IMG/VR virus record: IMGVR_UViG_3300044678_001758
Coordinates: 1 to 27,118 of that record
From: a virus
Strand: one strand, 5' to 3'
DNA length: 27,118 nucleotides
Position numbers and translations under genes: made by a program. The notes below the pieces were generated by a model. It was given only the letters and a program-made list of their open reading frames with translations. It had not been told where the DNA came from and searched no databases. Below, piece by piece: positions 16,641 through 25,348 of this stretch (its first letter is position 1; each line of letters begins with the position of its first letter).

Positions 16641-17039
16641 GTGGGCGACGCTCTCGATACGCTGACGCTTCGTGAATTGTGCGACGCCGTGCGCGAGCAA
16701 ATCGGGCCACGCGCCGCCGAGCTTGAGCACACCTGCGACGTGATCGTTACGGAAATCTGCCGCTGCTGGCCGGAGCGGACGATGGCGGAGATCGCTGGCA
16801 AACTCTCCTGTGCGAGAGCCGCCGACGACGTGCTCGACGCGATCGCCGTCACGACCGCGAAGGTGCGGGAGAACATTGAGGCCCGCTGGGGATGCAAGCC
16901 CTCGCACAAGGCGGCCCTCGACCTCGTGCTCCGAGCCTGCGTCGTTGAGTTTGCAAACCTCTGGTTCAGTTGCCCCGAAGCCCGCATCGGCATCCGAGCC
17001 GTCATCGCCATCGTGCGTCACAATCCCCGCGCCGCTTGA
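16641..17039 (+). CDS. hypothetical helical protein
   Basis: A 132-residue protein. The GTG start at 16641 is chosen because 'ggagg' lies about 5 bases upstream; the longer open frame before it overlaps the cysteine-rich gene and has no such site. The protein is helical and contains seven cysteines ('EHTCDVIVTEICRCWPERT', 'KLSCARAADDVLDAI', 'LVLRACVVEFANLWFSCPEA'). It has no signal peptide. I do not recognise a family. Confidence 0.5.
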   Translation: MGDALDTLTLRELCDAVREQIGPRAAELEHTCDVIVTEICRCWPERTMAEIAGKLSCARAADDVLDAIAVTTAKVRENIEARWGCKPSHKAALDLVLRACVVEFANLWFSCPEARIGIRAVIAIVRHNPRAA

Positions 17040-17065
17040 CGACTAAGCGAAAATCGCCCGCCATC

Positions 17066-17524
17066 ATGTCTGACGTTCAGCGGACATTTTTCGGGCAGGA
17101 CAAACCCAAGGCCGCCCCATGCCCAAACGCAAAGCCAAGAAAAAAACCGCCCGCCGAAAAGGAGACGATCCGAAGATCGGTCCCGGTGAAGGTCCGCGAC
17201 TGGCTGACCCGGCTGACGCGCATCCACGCACACGCGAGATATACCGTCCGGCTCTTCGCTCATCCTGAGACGGCAGGCGGGCAGTCCCTAGAGGGCGAGA
17301 CCTACGCGGCCCGCGCCGCCCGCTGCGATCAGACGCTCATCCACGACGCCTCCATGCTGATTCGAGACGAGGCGGACGCTATCGTCGCCGAGGTTCAGGC
17401 GGCAATGGACGCAGCCCCGAAGACGGCCGCGCTCCCCGGCACCAAGGCGAAGGTCGCCGAGATGGAAGCCAGGGCGAGGCGCGGGCAAAGTATCTTCGTT
17501 GACCAGGATGCTAAACACGCCTGA
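17066..17524 (+). CDS. hypothetical basic/helical protein
   Basis: A 152-residue protein from ATG 17066. The N-terminal third is very basic and Pro/Lys-rich ('KPRKKPPAEKETIRR'), followed by a helical domain with a 'VKVRDWLTRLTRIHAHARYT' segment and a C-terminal coiled helix. Upstream sequence offers only a weak ribosome site. It is the last gene of the rightward late group and is followed by a hairpin and the convergent integrase. Function is unknown; the charged N-terminus would suit nucleic-acid binding. Confidence 0.5.
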   Translation: MSDVQRTFFGQDKPKAAPCPNAKPRKKPPAEKETIRRSVPVKVRDWLTRLTRIHAHARYTVRLFAHPETAGGQSLEGETYAARAARCDQTLIHDASMLIRDEADAIVAEVQAAMDAAPKTAALPGTKAKVAEMEARARRGQSIFVDQDAKHA

Positions 17525-17533
17525 CGGCGCGTC

Positions 17534-17571
17534 GCGAGGCGGTCGGTTTCGTCCTTTCCCGGCCGCCTCGC
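17534..17571. terminator. hairpin between convergent late operon and integrase
   Basis: A perfect 9-bp inverted repeat, GCGAGGCGG (17534-17542) and CCGCCTCGC (17563-17571), extends inward by four more pairs (one G-U) to a 12-base loop. It lies in the 52-base gap between two converging genes, where a bidirectional terminator is expected. No U-run follows on either strand, so termination is inferred from position. Confidence 0.45.
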
Positions 17572-17576
17572 CGCCG

Positions 17577-18491
17577 TCATTCACCTTGACGATTCTGGTC
17601 AAGGTCTAGCTTCGGCAACGCGCTCAGGCTGATCTCCTCCTCTGGGCAGATCGTCGGGTCGACGTAGATCTTCTGGAGGTTCGGGTCTGCGTGATCGAGC
17701 AGGTGCGTTGCGGCTGCCCGTCCGCCGGCTAGGGCTGCATAAGACGCCGCCGTCCGCCGGAAGCCGTGGAAGCCTCTGTATTTCACGCCTGCGAGGCGAC
17801 AGAGCAGACGCAGGCTCGCCCATTGGCTGCGGCTCTTGCGGTCCCAGGCCCACACCAGAGCGTCAGGCGGGCCTTTCTCACGCCGCAGCATCTCGGCAAG
17901 GTCTTCCGTGATCTCACGCTCGATGTCGCGCGTGCTGCCTTTGCGAGTCTCCCCAAGGAATACGACGCGCCGCCGCTCCAGATCGACCTGCCCCCAGCGG
18001 AGCGATGTCAGGGCGGTGAACCGCTCGCCCGTGCAGTACGCGGTGTATATCAGCGTCGGCCACCACCAGGCGGCACGCTTTCCGCCGACCGATCCTTGCC
18101 GACGCTTCGCCCGCACGATGAGTTTCGCCACGTCCTCCGCCGTGTAGGCCCGCCCTGTAGGCAGCCTCGCCGGAACGCGGATCTTCGGGAGCTCGGGGAA
18201 GTCAGCCGCCCAACGCTTGCGGGCGGCGAGGTTCCACGCCGCCTGTAGCATCACCTTGTCCTTCTGGACACTCGCGGCCGATGGCACCCGCCCCTTGTAG
18301 CCAGGCGTCGTGGCCCGCCAGCGCAGGTATCTCGCGATCACGAGGTCGTCGAGGTCCGCAAGCGTCGGCTCGTGGCCGAGGAAGTTCGTCAGCCTGTCGC
18401 CTAATTGGTTGTACAGCGACGCCGTGTTGCCCTTGAGATTCCGAAGCGTGACGTACCGCTCGAACAGTTCCTTCAAAGTCATCGTTTCCAT
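17577..18491 (-). CDS. int: tyrosine recombinase (phage integrase)
   Basis: A 304-residue protein. I choose the ATG at 18491 over an in-frame start 29 codons upstream because 'gggag' lies 7 bases before it and the probable promoter overlaps the upstream part. Residues 1-110 form the SAM-like core-binding domain. The catalytic domain has the complete set R157 ('TGERF'), K184 ('RKGSTRD'), H242-R245 ('HGFRRT'), H267 ('LLDHADP') and nucleophile Y276 ('KIYVDP'). It should integrate and excise the element at an att site. It is divergent from the excisionase-like gene and is the only minus-strand gene in the window. Confidence 0.92.
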   Translation of the reverse strand: METMTLKELFERYVTLRNLKGNTASLYNQLGDRLTNFLGHEPTLADLDDLVIARYLRWRATTPGYKGRVPSAASVQKDKVMLQAAWNLAARKRWAADFPELPKIRVPARLPTGRAYTAEDVAKLIVRAKRRQGSVGGKRAAWWWPTLIYTAYCTGERFTALTSLRWGQVDLERRRVVFLGETRKGSTRDIEREITEDLAEMLRREKGPPDALVWAWDRKSRSQWASLRLLCRLAGVKYRGFHGFRRTAASYAALAGGRAAATHLLDHADPNLQKIYVDPTICPEEEISLSALPKLDLDQNRQGE

Positions 18492-18513
18492 GTTGTTTCT
18501 CCCGGTGTGATGG

Positions 18514-18544
18514 CTGTTATACCCACTACTGTACAACAGTCCAA
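18514..18544 (-). promoter_or_regulatory. integrase promoter with overlapping inverted-repeat operator
   Basis: On the minus strand, TTGGAC (18544-18539), a 17-base spacer and TATAAC (18521-18516) form a sigma70-type promoter, 25 bases before the integrase ATG. An inverted repeat, CTGTTATAC, 8 bases, GTACAACAG (18514-18539, one mismatch), covers the whole promoter. This looks like an operator for a dimeric repressor. Confidence 0.65.
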
Positions 18545-18613
18545 CTCCCCTCGCCTCCACTAGACATTTGCCCGACACCCCAACTTTAGGGCCGGGCCGG
18601 GACGGAGTCCAAT

Positions 18614-18641
18614 TTGACTAAGTTCCGCTAGACGGTACTTT
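18614..18641 (+). promoter_or_regulatory. promoter P1 of the excisionase-like gene
   Basis: TTGACT (18614-18619), a 16-base spacer containing TTCCGCTAGAC, and TACTTT (18636-18641). The expected start of transcription, about 18648-18651, falls at the first ATG, so the mRNA may be leaderless. The spacer motif recurs in the promoters at 18964 and 19464. Confidence 0.65.
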
Positions 18642-18650
18642 TGTAGGGAC

Positions 18651-18917
18651 ATGGTCACGATGGCATACAACATCGACGGCGTCGACTACCTCACGATCTC
18701 CGAGGCGGTCGAATTCATGGGCTGCACGGACGGCTGGGTTCGCGCCCTGTGCCGGGACGGCAAGCTGTCGAGCCGGATGCTGGGGAAACGGCTGCGTCTC
18801 GTGGAAAAGCGGTCAGCCGCCGAAGTCCGCGACTCCCTCACCACCAGGGCGGTCGGGAAAAAGCACCTCGCCAAGCGTCCAGCCGCCAAGCGGAAGAAGG
18901 CGAAGCGGAAGAAGTAG
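18651..18917 (+). CDS. xis: excisionase-like HTH protein
   Basis: An 88-residue protein with a MerR/excisionase-type winged helix-turn-helix at about residues 12-60: 'YLTISEAVEFMGCTDGWVRA', then 'LCRDGKLSSRMLGKRLRLVE'. The last 20 residues are almost all Lys, Arg and Ala, a basic DNA-clamping tail. It lies head-to-head with the integrase, the standard place for Xis, where it would bend att DNA and direct excision; it could also regulate transcription. The first ATG at 18651 would be leaderless from promoter P1. An ATG at 18660 gives an 85-residue form. Confidence 0.7.
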   Translation: MVTMAYNIDGVDYLTISEAVEFMGCTDGWVRALCRDGKLSSRMLGKRLRLVEKRSAAEVRDSLTTRAVGKKHLAKRPAAKRKKAKRKK

Positions 18918-18938
18918 CGTTTTCCCCGCAGAAAACGC
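18917..18938 (+). terminator. hairpin after the excisionase-like gene
   Basis: A perfect 8-bp stem, GCGTTTTC and GAAAACGC, with a 6-base loop, begins at the last base of the stop codon. An A-run rather than a T-run follows, so it is not a textbook terminator on this strand. It may still end or trim the short xis message ahead of the next promoter. Confidence 0.4.
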
Positions 18939-18963
18939 CCCTAAAAAAATCCGATTCATGCCC

Positions 18964-18992
18964 TTGACGCCCAACTACCGATAGACTACAGT
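18964..18992 (+). promoter_or_regulatory. promoter P2 with shared spacer motif
   Basis: TTGACG (18964-18969), a 17-base spacer ending in CTACCGATAGAC, then TACAGT (18987-18992). Transcription would begin near 18999. There a 7-bp inverted repeat, CGTCAGG (18999-19005) and CCTGACG (19015-19021), starts the 5' leader of the 19045 gene and could be an operator or an mRNA 5' hairpin. Confidence 0.7.
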
Positions 18993-19044
18993 AACGCACG
19001 TCAGGCAAATGAGACCTGACGAGACGCCAGCCGGGAGATGAACG

Positions 19045-19248
19045 ATGGAAACGATCACGCTCAACAATCGGACGTACAAGGTTGCTGAGGAGCTCGGCGT
19101 TGGCGTGAACGTCGCCCGCGAACTTGGCATCATCCGCCAGTGCATCATTGAGGGCGTCAAGGGCTCCACGCTTCTGTTTCAGGTCTTCGCTGACGGCACC
19201 CGCCGCACGATCAACGCGGTCGGCAACCGAGTGACCTACTACCGCTGA
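19045..19248 (+). CDS. small hypothetical protein behind P2
   Basis: A 67-residue protein with a clear ribosome site (gggagatg, about 5 bases before the ATG). It starts with 'METITLNNRTYKVAEELGVG', has a helix at about residues 24-36 and ends in beta-like 'TLLFQVFADGTRRTINAVG'. No family is recognised. It has its own promoter and is followed by an intrinsic terminator, so it forms an independent unit next to the integration genes. A regulatory role is a guess from position. Confidence 0.6.
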   Translation: METITLNNRTYKVAEELGVGVNVARELGIIRQCIIEGVKGSTLLFQVFADGTRRTINAVGNRVTYYR

Positions 19249-19265
19249 CCAACGCACAAGGTGGG

Positions 19266-19308
19266 GCCACCCGGCCAGCCGACAGCCGCGAAACGGGTGG
19301 CACTTTTT
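19266..19308 (+). terminator. intrinsic terminator / possible attenuator
   Basis: A perfect 8-bp stem, GCCACCCG (19266-19273) and CGGGTGGC (19294-19301), with a 20-base loop is followed by AC and TTTTT (19304-19308). It comes 18 bases after the stop of the 19045 gene and 18 bases before the ATG of the next, so readthrough here would set expression of that gene. Confidence 0.7.
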
Positions 19309-19326
19309 CAAGCCAAGGAGGGCAAT

Positions 19327-19467
19327 ATGAAAATCGACTGGGACTCAATGATCCGCTCGCTCGTTCTCGTTCGACTGGGCCAGGAGCTCGGCTACGACTC
19401 GCCGCTTGCCCGAATGGTCCACGACTCGATCACGCTCGTTCTCACGATGATCGGAATACTGTCTTGA
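19327..19467 (+). CDS. 46-residue peptide with hydrophobic C-terminus
   Basis: The ATG at 19327 has a very strong ribosome site (aaggaggg). The 46-residue product is amphipathic at first ('DWDSMIRSLVLVRLGQELG') and ends in a hydrophobic helix ('SITLVLTMIGILS'), so membrane association is possible. It follows the terminator at 19266-19308 closely and overlaps promoter P3 at its 3' end. No family is recognised. Small hydrophobic peptides in lysogeny regions are sometimes exclusion or regulatory factors, but nothing here shows that. Confidence 0.5.
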   Translation: MKIDWDSMIRSLVLVRLGQELGYDSPLARMVHDSITLVLTMIGILS

Positions 19468-19491
19468 CGAACTACCGCTAGACCATAGCCT
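19464..19491 (+). promoter_or_regulatory. promoter P3 with two copies of the shared motif
   Basis: TTGACG (19464-19469), a 16-base spacer and TAGCCT (19486-19491). CTACCGCTAGAC fills the spacer at 19472-19483, and an exact second copy lies at 19494-19505 over the expected start site, 22 bases (about two helical turns) downstream. The -10 is the weakest of the set. Confidence 0.6.
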
Positions 19492-19569
19492 ATCTACCGC
19501 TAGACGAACCGTCACCACTCGCCTTGCTGAACAAACTTTTCACTCCCCAACAACTTGATACCTGGACGC

Positions 19570-19597
19570 TTGACGACTACCGGAACGCCCGTACATT
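19570..19597 (+). promoter_or_regulatory. promoter P4 before the 19626 gene
   Basis: TTGACG (19570-19575), a 16-base spacer beginning ACTACCGG, and TACATT (19592-19597). Only the first half of the shared motif (ACTACCG) is kept. The start site near 19604 leaves a short leader containing 'aggag' (19611-19615) before ATG 19626, which argues against the longer frame from TTG 19524. Confidence 0.65.
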
Positions 19598-19625: not shown

Positions 19626-19844
19626 ATGAACGCCCACGACAACGAGTATCTCGCCGCCGCGACCTACCTTTCCGACCAGACGCCCGCCCCTCGCCAGACG
19701 CATTTCGCCATCGGCGATTTCGTCAGCGGCACCTCTGGCGGCAAGCAGTGGAGCGGTCGCATCTGGGACATCGACGGCGACCGGCTCTCAATCGAAATCG
19801 ACGGCGGCTGGCTGGCTGTCTCTGCCAAGGACGTGACGCACTAG
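19626..19844 (+). CDS. small hypothetical protein behind P4
   Basis: A 72-residue protein. I take ATG 19626, because a promoter with near-consensus boxes and a ribosome site lie immediately upstream, inside the region a longer frame would need to code for. The N-terminus is polar; the C-terminal 45 residues form a small beta barrel-like pattern ('FAIGDFVSG', 'QWSGRIWDIDGDRLSIEID', 'GWLAVSAKDVTH') that resembles SH3-like or KOW-type folds. It may head the early operon that continues into the RecT-like gene. No family is assigned. Confidence 0.6.
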   Translation: MNAHDNEYLAAATYLSDQTPAPRQTHFAIGDFVSGTSGGKQWSGRIWDIDGDRLSIEIDGGWLAVSAKDVTH

Positions 19845-19936
19845 GAAACCCCCGGAGGATCCGGGCGCAGGAGGTTGATTTGCCGCAGACCTAGGACGGG
19901 CGAGCGGCTGTTTTTCACACGCAGAAAGGACGCGAT

Positions 19937-20785: not shown

Positions 20786-21186
20786 GTTACATCAGCACCT
20801 TCGCCTACATCGAGGAAGAGGCGCGCCGCGAGGAGTCGGACATTCGCATGGGCGACCGTCCGCCGATCCGGATGCCGTCACGGGTCAGCAACGGCGGATT
20901 CCAGCCGATGCCGATGGCGACTCTCACCCCCGAGCAGGCGAGGGCTGCTGGCTGGGAGCTCTACAAGGCACTCGTGGCTGTCGACCAGGTGCTCGCGGAG
21001 CGCGGGCAACTGACCGACGCGATCGTCGTCAACGTCTGGGGCAGTGCGAGAGCCACCGTTAGACGGGCAAGCAAAGTCGAGGCAGTCGCAGCCTCAGAGC
21101 CGGAAGACGGCAGCGACCCGCAGCGGGAGTCGGAAACCACCGCAGCCGAGGCGACCCGAAACAACTCGACATCTCCAGGGGCGTGA
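20782..21186 (+). CDS. hypothetical protein in the recombination operon
   Basis: A 134-residue acidic protein whose ATG overlaps the RecT-like stop (ATGA). It has a charged N-terminal helix ('YIEEEARREESDIRMG'), a central helical segment with 'GWELYKALVAVDQVLAERG', and a disordered Ser/Thr/Glu-rich tail of about 40 residues. No family is recognised. Coupled translation suggests that it works with the RecT-like protein or the recombinase that follows. Confidence 0.5.
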   Translation: MSYISTFAYIEEEARREESDIRMGDRPPIRMPSRVSNGGFQPMPMATLTPEQARAAGWELYKALVAVDQVLAERGQLTDAIVVNVWGSARATVRRASKVEAVAASEPEDGSDPQRESETTAAEATRNNSTSPGA

Positions 21187-21236
21187 CTCGACGGTCTGCC
21201 CCACCAGACGGGGCCAATACACAAGGACGTAGATCA

Positions 21237-22064
21237 ATGAAAAAGCCAGCCATCATGACATTCGGACGCATCGCCAAGGCGTACCTCGCCGAGCGGATCG
21301 TCTCCAAGCACTACGCCGAGAACGTCGAGCGGATCTCCCTGCGTTGCTGCGAGGTCAGCGTCAAGCGGGTCAACGAATACCTGCGGACGATCTCTTCGGA
21401 GAAGGCCAGCACCACCGTCAGGGCAGAGCGGACGATCCTGCTCACGCTCTACCGCTATGCGTTCGAGACCGGGATGATCGACGAAGCCCCGCGCGGCGTG
21501 ATGAAGATCAAGGCCCGCAAGAGCCCGACGAAGGCTTGGACTGTCGAGCAACTTCGCGGGCTGATTGCCGCCACGAAAGCCCACGACGGCAAGCGGCTCC
21601 GATCCGGTGCCAACCTCGGCAAGTTCCTCCGGTGCTGGGTGCTGCTCGCCTACGAGTGCGGGGCTCGCTTCGGCGACGTGATGTCGTTCACTCGCGAGCA
21701 CCTGGACGGCGACACGCTGTCTTGGACGCAGAGCAAGACCGGCGATCCGTTGGTCCGACCGCTGACGCCAGCCTGCCTGACAGCCATCGACGAAATGCTC
21801 GCCGTGTCGCCAGACGGCCGGATCCTCGGCTGGGTCTGCAAGCGTCGGATGGCAATGCGGCACATGCGGATCCTGCTCGACAGCGTCGGCATGGGCGGGA
21901 GCTCGAAGTGGCTGCGTCGCAGCGGCGCGACCCATTGCGAGATGGAAAAGCCTGGGGCTGGCCGGCTCCACCTGGGCCACCGATCGCCCGCGCTCTTTGA
22001 GCAGGCTTATTGCGACTGGTCACAACTTCGGCAGCGGACGCCGAAGACGCCGGCACTGGTCTAA
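21237..22064 (+). CDS. second tyrosine recombinase
   Basis: A 275-residue protein. I prefer ATG 21237, with 'aagga' upstream; a GTG at 21183 overlapping the previous stop is possible. Residues 1-95 form a core-binding domain. The catalytic domain has R144 ('CGARFGDV'), K167 ('SKTGDPL'), K224-R227 (the HxxR box with Lys instead of His, 'KWLRRSGATH'), H248 ('LGHRSP') and Y258 ('FEQAYCD'). The set is complete, so it is probably active. It is only distantly similar to the integrase at 17577. Sitting within an early operon behind RecT, it may resolve replication products or act as an alternative integrase. Confidence 0.88.
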   Translation: MKKPAIMTFGRIAKAYLAERIVSKHYAENVERISLRCCEVSVKRVNEYLRTISSEKASTTVRAERTILLTLYRYAFETGMIDEAPRGVMKIKARKSPTKAWTVEQLRGLIAATKAHDGKRLRSGANLGKFLRCWVLLAYECGARFGDVMSFTREHLDGDTLSWTQSKTGDPLVRPLTPACLTAIDEMLAVSPDGRILGWVCKRRMAMRHMRILLDSVGMGGSSKWLRRSGATHCEMEKPGAGRLHLGHRSPALFEQAYCDWSQLRQRTPKTPALV

Positions 22065-22581: not shown

Positions 22582-23400
22582 ATGGCCGGTGACTGGCTCA
22601 AAATGCGGCACGACCTGGCTGACGACCCGGCCGTTATCCGGCTGGCGTCGATCTGCGGGCTCGAAGAGGACGCCGTGATCGGCAAGCTCTTCCGGCTTTG
22701 GTCGTGGGCAGACCGCCATAGCAAAGACGGCCAGGTCGAAGGTGTCGATCTGGCGTGGGTTGATCGTTTGGCTCGGCGTGATGGGTACGGTGCCGCCCTT
22801 GTCAGGGTGGGCTGGCTTGTCGAAACAGGCGAGGGGCTGAGTTTCCCGCGTTTCGACCGGCATTGCAGCGACACCGCGAAGACCCGTGCGCTCGGGAAAA
22901 ATAGGGTCGAAACGCACCGTAACGCTACCAGCGTTACACGGCCCGACGATCCTGTAACGCTCGATGCGTTACCAGAGAAGAGAAGAGAAGAACTTCCTCC
23001 TCTACCGCGCGAGGGATTTGACAAGGCGGCATGGCAGACGCTTCGCCGGGCTTGGAACGCCGGCAAGGGGAAAGCGTGGAAGCCGGTCAATCCACACCCG
23101 AAGGCAGTGGAGCGGCTGTCGGAGCCCGGTTGGCTCGGCGAGGCTCTCAAAGCCATCGAGCGGCTGGGCCGGTGCCAGTTCTTTCGGACTGCCGTGTCGC
23201 TAGGGCAGTTTTGCGGGCCGGACTTCGTGACGCTCTGCAACGGCGGGGAGTACGACGACCGGAACGACACGAAGAAGGGGCGTGACTTCGGAGAAGCACC
23301 GCCACCCAAGGCTTTCACGGGACCAGATGCCGAGGCTTTCGAGCGGACCCGTCGTGCGCTTGCAGCCAAGGCGAAAACAGAAGCGAAAGGAATCGCATGA
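22582..23400 (+). CDS. replication initiator-like protein
   Basis: A 272-residue protein; ATG 22582 has 'gggagg' 6 bases upstream. The first 115 residues follow the N-terminal winged-helix pattern of phage replication proteins: 'WLKMRHDLADDPAVIRLA', 'AVIGKLFRLWSWADRHSKDG', 'ALVRVGWLVETGEGLSFPRF' and 'HCSDTAKTRALGKNR'. A charged linker follows, then a second helical domain (residues of about 150-235), plausibly for partner binding. By analogy with lambda O-type proteins it should bind the phage origin and recruit the host helicase. The origin itself is not identified. It overlaps the next gene by ATGA. Confidence 0.65.
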   Translation: MAGDWLKMRHDLADDPAVIRLASICGLEEDAVIGKLFRLWSWADRHSKDGQVEGVDLAWVDRLARRDGYGAALVRVGWLVETGEGLSFPRFDRHCSDTAKTRALGKNRVETHRNATSVTRPDDPVTLDALPEKRREELPPLPREGFDKAAWQTLRRAWNAGKGKAWKPVNPHPKAVERLSEPGWLGEALKAIERLGRCQFFRTAVSLGQFCGPDFVTLCNGGEYDDRNDTKKGRDFGEAPPPKAFTGPDAEAFERTRRALAAKAKTEAKGIA

Positions 23401-23642
23401 CAAAGACCGCCCCCAGCCCACCCGAGCCGATCACCGACGCCGCGCGCCGCGTGTACGACGCCATCGTCGACTACATCGACTCCCACGGATACGCCCCTAC
23501 CGTCCGCGAGCTTTGCGGGCTGCTCGACATCGCCTCGCCTAACGGCGTGGAGTGCCACCTGAAGACGCTAGAGCGGCGCGGCTGGATCGTCCGCACCGAG
23601 CGTCAGGCTCGCACCATTCGCCCGATTGGGGGTCAGCGATGA
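23397..23642 (+). CDS. LexA-type DNA-binding domain without peptidase
   Basis: An 81-residue protein matching the N-terminal winged helix of LexA: 'RRVYDAIVDYIDSHGYAPTV' then 'REL' (to residue 39), 'SPNGVECHLKTLERRGWI' (47-64) and a final 'RTIRP'. LexA is about 200 residues and has a self-cleaving Ser-Lys domain, which is absent here. So it could bind DNA but could not be inactivated by RecA-stimulated self-cleavage. It could compete with the host LexA or act as an early repressor. It overlaps genes on both sides by ATGA. Confidence 0.8.
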   Translation: MTKTAPSPPEPITDAARRVYDAIVDYIDSHGYAPTVRELCGLLDIASPNGVECHLKTLERRGWIVRTERQARTIRPIGGQR

Positions 23643-24094: not shown

Positions 24095-24348
24095 CGATCC
24101 ACGACATCACGGCCCTCTCGTTTTTCGGCATGGCCCAGGCGGTGACGTTCGCCGCTGGGCTGGTGGTTGGTTTGAAACTCTCGCGAAAGGATGTGCGAAA
24201 TGACGACAGCGACAAAGACCCGACGAAAGACCCAGAGTGGTGGCATACAGTTGGCGGCGAGCGACCTCGCTGCCGGGCTGCGAGCAGTGGCGGCGGCTGT
24301 CCCCACCAGAAGCCCGAAGCCGATTCTCGCCAACGTGCTGATCGCTGA
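24091..24348 (+). CDS. small membrane protein overlapping the clamp gene
   Basis: From a GTG with 'ggagg' 7 bases upstream, 85 residues. Residues 8-30 form a hydrophobic helix ('ALSFFGMAQAVTFAAGLVVG'), followed by a charged stretch. The frame continues 149 bases into the sliding-clamp gene in another frame before its stop. Until about 24190 it fills the gap between genes and has a proper start. The second half ('RPRCRAASSGGGCPHQKPE') looks like read-through of the clamp coding DNA, so the tail may not be under selection. Moderate confidence. Confidence 0.4.
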   Translation: MTIHDITALSFFGMAQAVTFAAGLVVGLKLSRKDVRNDDSDKDPTKDPEWWHTVGGERPRCRAASSGGGCPHQKPEADSRQRADR

Positions 24349-25348
24349 CGGCACGATCACGGCGACGGATCTCGAACTGCGGATCACGGCACCGCTGCCC
24401 GGCGCGGATGGCCCGCCGATCCTGCTGCCGTTCCAACGGCTCTCGTCGATCGTCAACAGCCTCGTCGGCTCTGACGAGGTGACGCTGACGGTCGACGGCT
24501 CGTGTTGTGTCGTCCAAGGCGGCAGCGGCACCTGGCGGCTCCCGGTCGAGGACGCAAAAGAATATCCCCCAGGGGACTATGCGGCGTCGAGGTCGATCGC
24601 GCGCCTGCCCGCTGACCAGTTCGTTTCGCTCGTCTCCACCGTGAAGGGTGCGACTGACAACGAGAGCAGCCGCTTCGCTCTCGGCGCGGTGCTGATGGAG
24701 TTCTCACGCCCGAAGGACAAAGAGGAGCCCTACGGGACGTTGACGTTCGTCGGCACTGACGGCCGGCGGCTCTGCGCTGCGTCGTGCGAGGTCGAGCAAG
24801 ACTGCGACGACTCGCAGACGCTTGCCCCTCGGGCTGCGGTCGACACGCTCGTCAGGCTCGCTAAGGGGGCCGAGGCGGTGCAATTGGAGACGACGGGCCG
24901 CGAGCTCGTTGCCACAGTGGACGGGACGATCGTTCGCTCCAGGCTCATCGAAGGGCGATTCCCACGCTGGCGAGACGTGGAAGTCGATCACGGCGTCACG
25001 CCGTCGCTCGTCGTCGCTGGGGCTCTGTCTCACGCCTGCGAAATGGCGAGCATCTGCGCGAGCGAAAGCTCGAAGGGGACGGAATTCGTGTTCACGAAGG
25101 ACGGGCTTTTCCTGTCGGCCCGATCGTCTGAATACGGCGAGTCGTCGGCGACGTGCGACCTGGTCGAAGTCGGCCACGCCTGCACGGTGAAGCTCGACCC
25201 GCGATTCGTCTTGTCGTGGCTTCGCTGCGGAAGCATCGACCCGGCCGAGACGATCACGATTGAGGCGAAGGATGGCGACTCTGCGGTCATCCTGCGAGCC
25301 GGTGAAGGCGTTCGGACAGTCATCATGCCGCTAGCAAAGGACGGCTGA
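24200..25348 (+). CDS. dnaN: DNA polymerase III sliding clamp (beta subunit-like)
   Basis: A 382-residue protein, close to the usual 366-380 of bacterial DnaN. Starts at 24191 and 24200 are both possible; 24200 has 'aaagga' at good spacing. Clamp hallmarks: 'PILANVLIADGTITATDLEL' near residue 40-60, 'SSRFALGAVL' (R158), 'FVGTDGRRLC' (D187), 'LIEGRFPRW' (E251) and a C-terminal 'VIMPL' before the end. It should form a dimeric ring of three-domain subunits that tethers polymerase to DNA. No phage polymerase is in the window, so it probably loads on, or competes for, the host replisome. Confidence 0.85.
   Translation: MTTATKTRRKTQSGGIQLAASDLAAGLRAVAAAVPTRSPKPILANVLIADGTITATDLELRITAPLPGADGPPILLPFQRLSSIVNSLVGSDEVTLTVDGSCCVVQGGSGTWRLPVEDAKEYPPGDYAASRSIARLPADQFVSLVSTVKGATDNESSRFALGAVLMEFSRPKDKEEPYGTLTFVGTDGRRLCAASCEVEQDCDDSQTLAPRAAVDTLVRLAKGAEAVQLETTGRELVATVDGTIVRSRLIEGRFPRWRDVEVDHGVTPSLVVAGALSHACEMASICASESSKGTEFVFTKDGLFLSARSSEYGESSATCDLVEVGHACTVKLDPRFVLSWLRCGSIDPAETITIEAKDGDSAVILRAGEGVRTVIMPLAKDG

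Follow-up and report, generated by a model that had tools for sequence, protein, structure and literature searches.

The stretch of DNA analysed here (hereafter the window) is the 27,118-bp IMG/VR virus record IMGVR_UViG_3300044678_001758, which is possibly an incomplete genome. It contains a tyrosine integrase gene and, to its right, a divergently oriented small regulator gene (the P1 protein) followed by two further promoters, P2 and P3, in the same orientation as P1 (Table 1). A near-palindrome, ACTGTACAACAGT, lies at 18528-18540 in the likely promoter region of the integrase. Farther to the right, a second tyrosine-integrase-like gene is located in the early region (21183-22064; phrog_1, E=1.9e-20), followed by the gene of an 81-aa protein with a LexA DNA-binding domain, too short to include the peptidase domain (23397-23642), and by a phage homologue of the DNA polymerase III beta sliding clamp (24191-25348).

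Table 1. Genes, promoters and putative operators at the regulatory locus (positions in the window).
Feature	Position	Strand	Remarks
Tyrosine integrase gene	17577..18491	-	divergent from the regulator gene; conserved neighbour, unlinked to operator class
Exchanged cassette, P1 to P3	18600..19518	.	begins near 18600 and ends shortly after P3
P1 promoter	18614..18641	+	TTGACT-16-TACTTT; drives the regulator gene; architecture common to more than 100 relatives
P1 operator GTTCCGCTAGACGGTAC	18622..18638	+	imperfect CTACCG-N5-CGGTAG
Regulator gene (P1 protein)	18651..18917	+	88 aa, HTH_17, predicted excisionase-family winged helix; proposed binder of all operators
P2 promoter	18964..18992	+	TTGACG-17-TACAGT; precedes a small gene of no known function
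P2 operator CTACCGATAGACTACAG	18975..18991	+	half-sites form an 11-bp direct repeat in the CCG class
Small gene of no known function	19045..19248	+	variable accessory slot behind P2
P3 promoter	19464..19491	+	TTGACG-16-TAGCCT; towards the early operon, genes leading into a RecT-like protein
P3 operator a CTACCGCTAGACCATAG	19472..19488	+	
P3 operator b CTACCGCTAGACGAACC	19494..19510	+	exactly 22 bp from operator a
P4	19570		TTGACG-16-TACATT with ACTACCG

A preliminary description of this DNA had placed TTGAC-type -35 boxes with a common spacer motif at P1, P2 and P3, the first half of that motif (ACTACCG) at P4, and a second exact copy of it 22 bases downstream at P3. The -35 boxes were found at these places, with plausible -10 boxes at a distance of 16-17 bp. 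The exact 12-mer CTACCGCTAGAC occurs twice in the window, at 19472 and 19494, which bears out the tandem copies at P3. P2 carries a copy with one mismatch (CTACCGATAGAC at 18975) and P1 only one with two mismatches (GTTCCGCTAGAC at 18622). These copies are situated in the spacer, or just behind the -10 box, of the TTGAC-type promoters within the 1 kb right of the integrase. Allowing one mismatch, the 27-kb window holds 3 sites compared to 0.09 expected, a number reached by none of 100 shuffles, and all three fall within 18975-19505; allowing three mismatches, 36 sites compare to 17.3 expected.

Each copy of the motif forms one half of the operator CTACCG-N5-CGGTAG; P1 and P2 have one such site each and P3 has two. 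Among the relatives, the clearest sites are inverted repeats, either CTACCG-N5-CGGTAG, as exemplified by the P1 site CTACCGACTATCGGTAG of L112, or GTAACG/CTAACG-N4-CGTTAC/CGTTAG. For the CCG, GTAACG and CTAACG classes the mean dyad score at P1 and P3 is 4.35-5.17 of 6, versus 1.0-1.5 for other gaps. The P2 sites of the CCG class are closer to an 11-bp direct repeat (4.37 of 6) than to a palindrome, and the GACG class displays little dyad symmetry. A clear P1 half-site is present in 16 of 28 CCG-class phages, the autoregulatory P1 sites often being weak or absent. Wherever a P3 pair was detected in the CCG class (19 loci), its spacing is 22 bp, as it is in the GACG (6 loci) and TGCA (14 loci) classes; in the GTAACG (14 loci) and CTAACG (8 loci) classes the tandem sites are 29-30 bp apart. 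Both spacings approximate whole helical turns, which would fit cooperative binding on one face of the DNA.

A search with the integrase resulted in 72 loci, and the ten with a 95-100% identical integrase that were read fall, with the window, into three types of the same promoter architecture. Type A (window, L026, L030) carries CTACCG[CA]TAGAC. In type B (L027, L028, L029, L034), P1 carries GTAACGCTGACGTTAC, P2 GTAACGATAACGCTAC and P3 two GTAACG sites, corresponding to a GTAACG-N4-CGTTAC operator, and type C (L024, L025, L031, L033) has ATGCA..GATC-like sites. The integrases are 95-100% identical, yet the operators at P1, P2 and P3 have all changed along with the P1 protein. Conversely, relatives with a similar P1 protein and a far less similar integrase keep the window's operator; in L101, the integrase is 43% identical, the P1-region DNA 92% identical and the operators are the same. 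By this double dissociation the half-site at P2 and P3 goes with the P1 protein, independent of integrase identity. In the orthologous promoters the motif is hence either kept or replaced in all its copies together, in step with the P1 protein, and operator type and one regulator gene change together between similar phages, as in an immunity cassette. P4 takes no part in this exchange. Its boxes and the heptamer ACTACCG are present, but types A, B and C, including relatives with a different P1-P3 motif, have an identical or almost identical stretch here (TTGACGACTACCGGAACGCCCGTACATT), so this ACTACCG is no shared operator; the common motif applies to P1, P2 and P3, and the membership proposed for P4 had to be dropped.

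A Blastn comparison of the window to L216 showed 99.9% identity over 1,601 bp (17000-18600), placing the left border of the exchange at about 18600. Beyond it, the two sequences cannot be aligned before 19250 and 19518, where short stretches are conserved. Inside the cassette, conservation is confined to 19250-19302 and parts of 19327-19467. The gene right behind P2 differs between the window, L152, L154, L216 and L220 despite 98-100% identical integrases, and the distance between P2 and P3 varies widely; this slot may be a promoter-controlled site for accessory genes. Between the P2 gene and P3, at 19260-19301, a conserved GGTGGGGCCACCC...GGGTGG is found in 46 of 144 loci. It permits pairing of GCCACCCG with CGGGTGGC ahead of a T-rich tail, and L152 contains a paired-looking change (CCCA/TGGG). 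Folded alone, this stretch was not stronger than its shuffles; in all, neither of the two conserved stretches that were folded did better than shuffled sequence, and an Rfam search of the region yielded nothing near the gathering score. To the right of the cassette, 74 bp (19841-19914) match L097 with 98.6% identity between flanking genes that are replaced, possibly representing a recombination anchor or a regulatory element.

Four proteins had been proposed as binders of the motif, those encoded at 18651, 19045, 23397 and 25348, and only the first, the P1 protein, fits. Type A phages encode a P1 protein 99% identical to the window's, type B phages one that is 41% identical, and type C gave no match. 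Across the same types the integrase is 98-100%, the LexA-like 23397 protein 91-96% and the clamp-like 24191 protein 94-98% identical, and the HTH protein from 25348 is 96-99% identical in L097, L154 and L216 (38% in L153). The LexA-like and 25348 proteins were therefore rejected as binders, as they stay near-constant while the operator changes in most comparisons, and so was the P2 product (19045), which is replaced within one operator type, differing between the type B phages L027 and L028. Searches with the P1 proteins yielded 57 (type A), 64 (type B) and 23 (type C) loci, and in 137 of the 144 a divergent integrase is located 150-400 bp upstream of the P1 gene. When operator class was mapped onto trees of 84 phages, the P1-protein tree required 4 changes (minimum 3) and the integrase tree 19, versus 35-48 when the classes are shuffled (38-48 on the P1-protein tree); a careful tree of 68 P1 proteins again required 4 changes. 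The LexA-like tree (34 phages with the gene) required 11 changes versus 3, and the clamp tree (25 phages with the gene) 10 versus 3. When P3 was located by a criterion blind to motif class, it agreed with the class of P2 in 64 of 71 phages. That P1, P2 and P3 share an operator read by one regulator, as the preliminary description had suggested for all four promoters, is thus strongly supported by sequence comparison.

Family match and modelled fold place the P1 protein among the winged-helix excisionase-family proteins. It matches PF12728 (28.0 bits, cut-off 27) and scores just below the cut-off for TIGR01764 (27.1 versus 28.8 bits), which matches in 56 of 57 of its relatives (best 1.2e-9). 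The AF2 model (pLDDT 83.5) has the order strand-HTH-wing. Its closest solved folds are Xis of mycobacteriophage Pukovnik (PDB 4j2n), also the sole sequence match in the PDB, and BldC of Streptomyces (PDB 6ama). The former superimposes with an rmsd of 1.0 over 47 columns and a TM of 0.77-0.80 by target, at a Foldseek E-value of only 0.025. The type C P1 protein, unrelated by BLAST, has the same two fold neighbours with weaker confidence. As far as its citation in PMC7498355 goes, Pukovnik Xis is an excisionase that bends att DNA through head-to-tail binding; it does not represent a repressor cassette, and BldC is a cellular regulator outside any phage cassette.

Two residues appear to track the operator class, which is suggestive of a role in recognition. 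Residue 32 lies in the predicted recognition helix and is the column of the protein most informative on operator class (1.82 of 1.88 bits): it is Arg in 19 of 19 GTAACG proteins, mostly Leu in CTAACG and Thr in GACG proteins, and L183, the sole CTAACG phage in the GTAACG clade, has lost Arg32 and carries Gln. Residue 35 is Arg in 25 of 25 CCG-class proteins and in 0 of 43 others. Arg31 is invariant, and so is the CG closing these half-sites. This correlation is confounded by descent, as the classes correspond to few clades and leave two independent pairs (sign test p = 0.5), too few for the Arg35 test to be informative.

Based on these comparisons, the locus probably constitutes an autoregulated repressor/operator cassette of the immunity type built on an excisionase-family protein. 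The repeated motif would be the operator half-site of the P1 protein. Acting as a dimer, this protein would contact half-sites separated by one turn of the helix, between the -35 and -10 boxes of P1 (for its own gene), P2 (for the accessory genes) and P3 (for the early operon), with two bound units side by side at P3. Spacers of 16-17 bp are those of ordinary promoters that a bound protein would block. The P1 protein would exclude RNA polymerase and so repress, rather than activate, both its own gene and the early genes, keeping the prophage quiet. Recombination of regulator and operators as one cassette into near-identical backbones would then generate different immunity types. Among 29 related contigs, which are possibly incomplete, none encodes an S24 domain and only one an HTH_3 (CI-type) protein above the cut-off, which makes the P1 protein the leading candidate for the repressor of lysogeny; given that these contigs are perhaps incomplete, they could lack a further repressor from a family not recognised here. 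Transcription of the lysogenic repressor leads away from the early operon in many temperate phages. Here, the P1 gene precedes this operon in the same direction, which counts against a function as repressor.

An alternative which we consider rather unlikely is that the P1 protein is an early lytic regulator and excision factor resembling Cox and Apl. Made early, it would lower its own and neighbouring promoters and aid excision, and the maintenance of lysogeny would fall to a different protein that escaped recognition. Apl (186), Cox (P2) and XisF4 (Pf4) are dual excisionases and regulators (PMC7498355, PMC7379572). They share with the P1 protein its small size, the excisionase-type DNA-binding domain, a position where the early genes begin, the half-sites one turn apart and the presence of sites at several promoters (PMC7498355, PMC7379572); as with Apl and its relatives, the P1 gene is first in the rightward transcript (PMC7498355), and the nearby divergent integrase also fits. 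In contrast to these proteins, which bind direct repeats beside a separate repressor (CI or C), the half-sites here are mostly inverted and lie within three consecutive promoters at a distance from the integrase, and a CI-type HTH_3 or S24 gene is missing in nearly all relatives checked. Recombination directionality factors use head-to-tail direct repeats 10-11 bp apart at att; the half-sites here have the one-turn spacing but, apart from P2 of the CCG class, a mostly inverted orientation, and attP was not located in this analysis. Furthermore, Apl binding is of low specificity (PMC7498355), whereas specificity here is fine-grained. A P2/186-type switch has opposed lytic and lysogenic promoters in addition to its separate CI/C repressor, while P1-P3 are co-oriented.

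Activation of P2 and P3 by a MerR-like distortion of the spacer seems improbable: MerR-like winged-helix proteins were among the neighbours in the fold search and the operator lies within the spacer, but the spacers are near the optimum with 16-17 bp instead of the 19-20 bp of MerR-type promoters with their dyad operators, and the second P3 site lies past the -10 box. It is very improbable that the motif is bound by another phage protein, a host regulator or a sigma factor. The 23397 and 25348 proteins do have DNA-binding domains, and the case for the P1 protein is one of sequence evidence; however, both are 91-99% identical in most comparisons while the operator changes, the LexA-like tree disagrees with the operator classes, and near-identical phages carry different motifs with the same integrase and thus presumably in the same host. 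Chance or inherited promoter sequence without a regulator can practically be dismissed. The initial evidence was three or four sites, and P4 shows that ACTACCG may be present without meaning; against this reading stand the excess over expectation, the concerted replacement of all sites, the fixed 22-bp pair in unrelated backbones and, barring artefact, the class-blind P3 test.

The proposed immunity cassette resembles other known systems only in part. In lambdoid phages the immunity block is exchanged as a unit, much like the cassette here. Such phages (lambda, 434) also have homologous circuits with different repressor/operator specificities (PMC6550527); unlike there, the locus described here has no CI/Cro pair, no divergent repressor promoter and an excisionase-family fold instead of HTH_3. 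In cluster A mycobacteriophages (L5, Bxb1, Trixie), the binding site diverges with the repressor and gives rise to immunity types (PMC6550527). Shared with the present locus are the single repressor (a putative one here) without an evident Cro partner and the joint divergence of repressor and site (PMC6550527), but cluster A phages have 20-30 asymmetric sites genome-wide, in contrast to four partly palindromic sites in three promoters. A stoperator array was rejected, as near-exact sites occur nowhere else in the 27-kb window (possibly an incomplete genome).

A search of 50,697 phage records matched the integrase and the regulator only in part and distantly, and no characterised lysogeny switch was found for the lineage; literature searches on planctomycete prophages or temperate-phage regulation listed nothing on this system, as judged by title or abstract. 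A GTDB scan pointed to MAGs of Planctomycetota (L240) and of Thermoguttaceae (L241, a distant homologue) and to one labelled Proteobacteria (L239). In 294 genomes of the phylum of L240 the only match was in its own genome, and the integrase family occurred in 3 of 72 genomes of its family with 39-43% identity. The matches being mixed, and sparse in phylum and family, Planctomycetota can only tentatively be named, on the basis of MAG contigs, as host of this uncultured temperate lineage. A bacterial genome from the same family as that of L240 (L246) has, upstream of an integrase, a divergent HTH gene and further on a TTCTTACGATGGCGTAAGAA palindrome, perhaps another operator class.

More speculatively, and with somewhat more doubt than belief, it may be that this lineage lacks CI-type repressors altogether and that one excisionase-family protein serves as the only immunity repressor and as excision factor, with residues 32 and 35 setting the immunity type and exchange of the cassette of about 1 kb, carrying the accessory slot along, reshuffling the types. 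The joint exchange of protein and sites among near-identical relatives has the look of interchangeable phage immunity types. Approximately 100 natural pairs of putative repressor and operator are at hand; they cover no fewer than five specificities, and one of the swaps adjoins DNA that is 99.9% identical. With small proteins and short DNA, this natural series allows direct tests of how heteroimmunity evolves and of a recognition code linking residues to bases.
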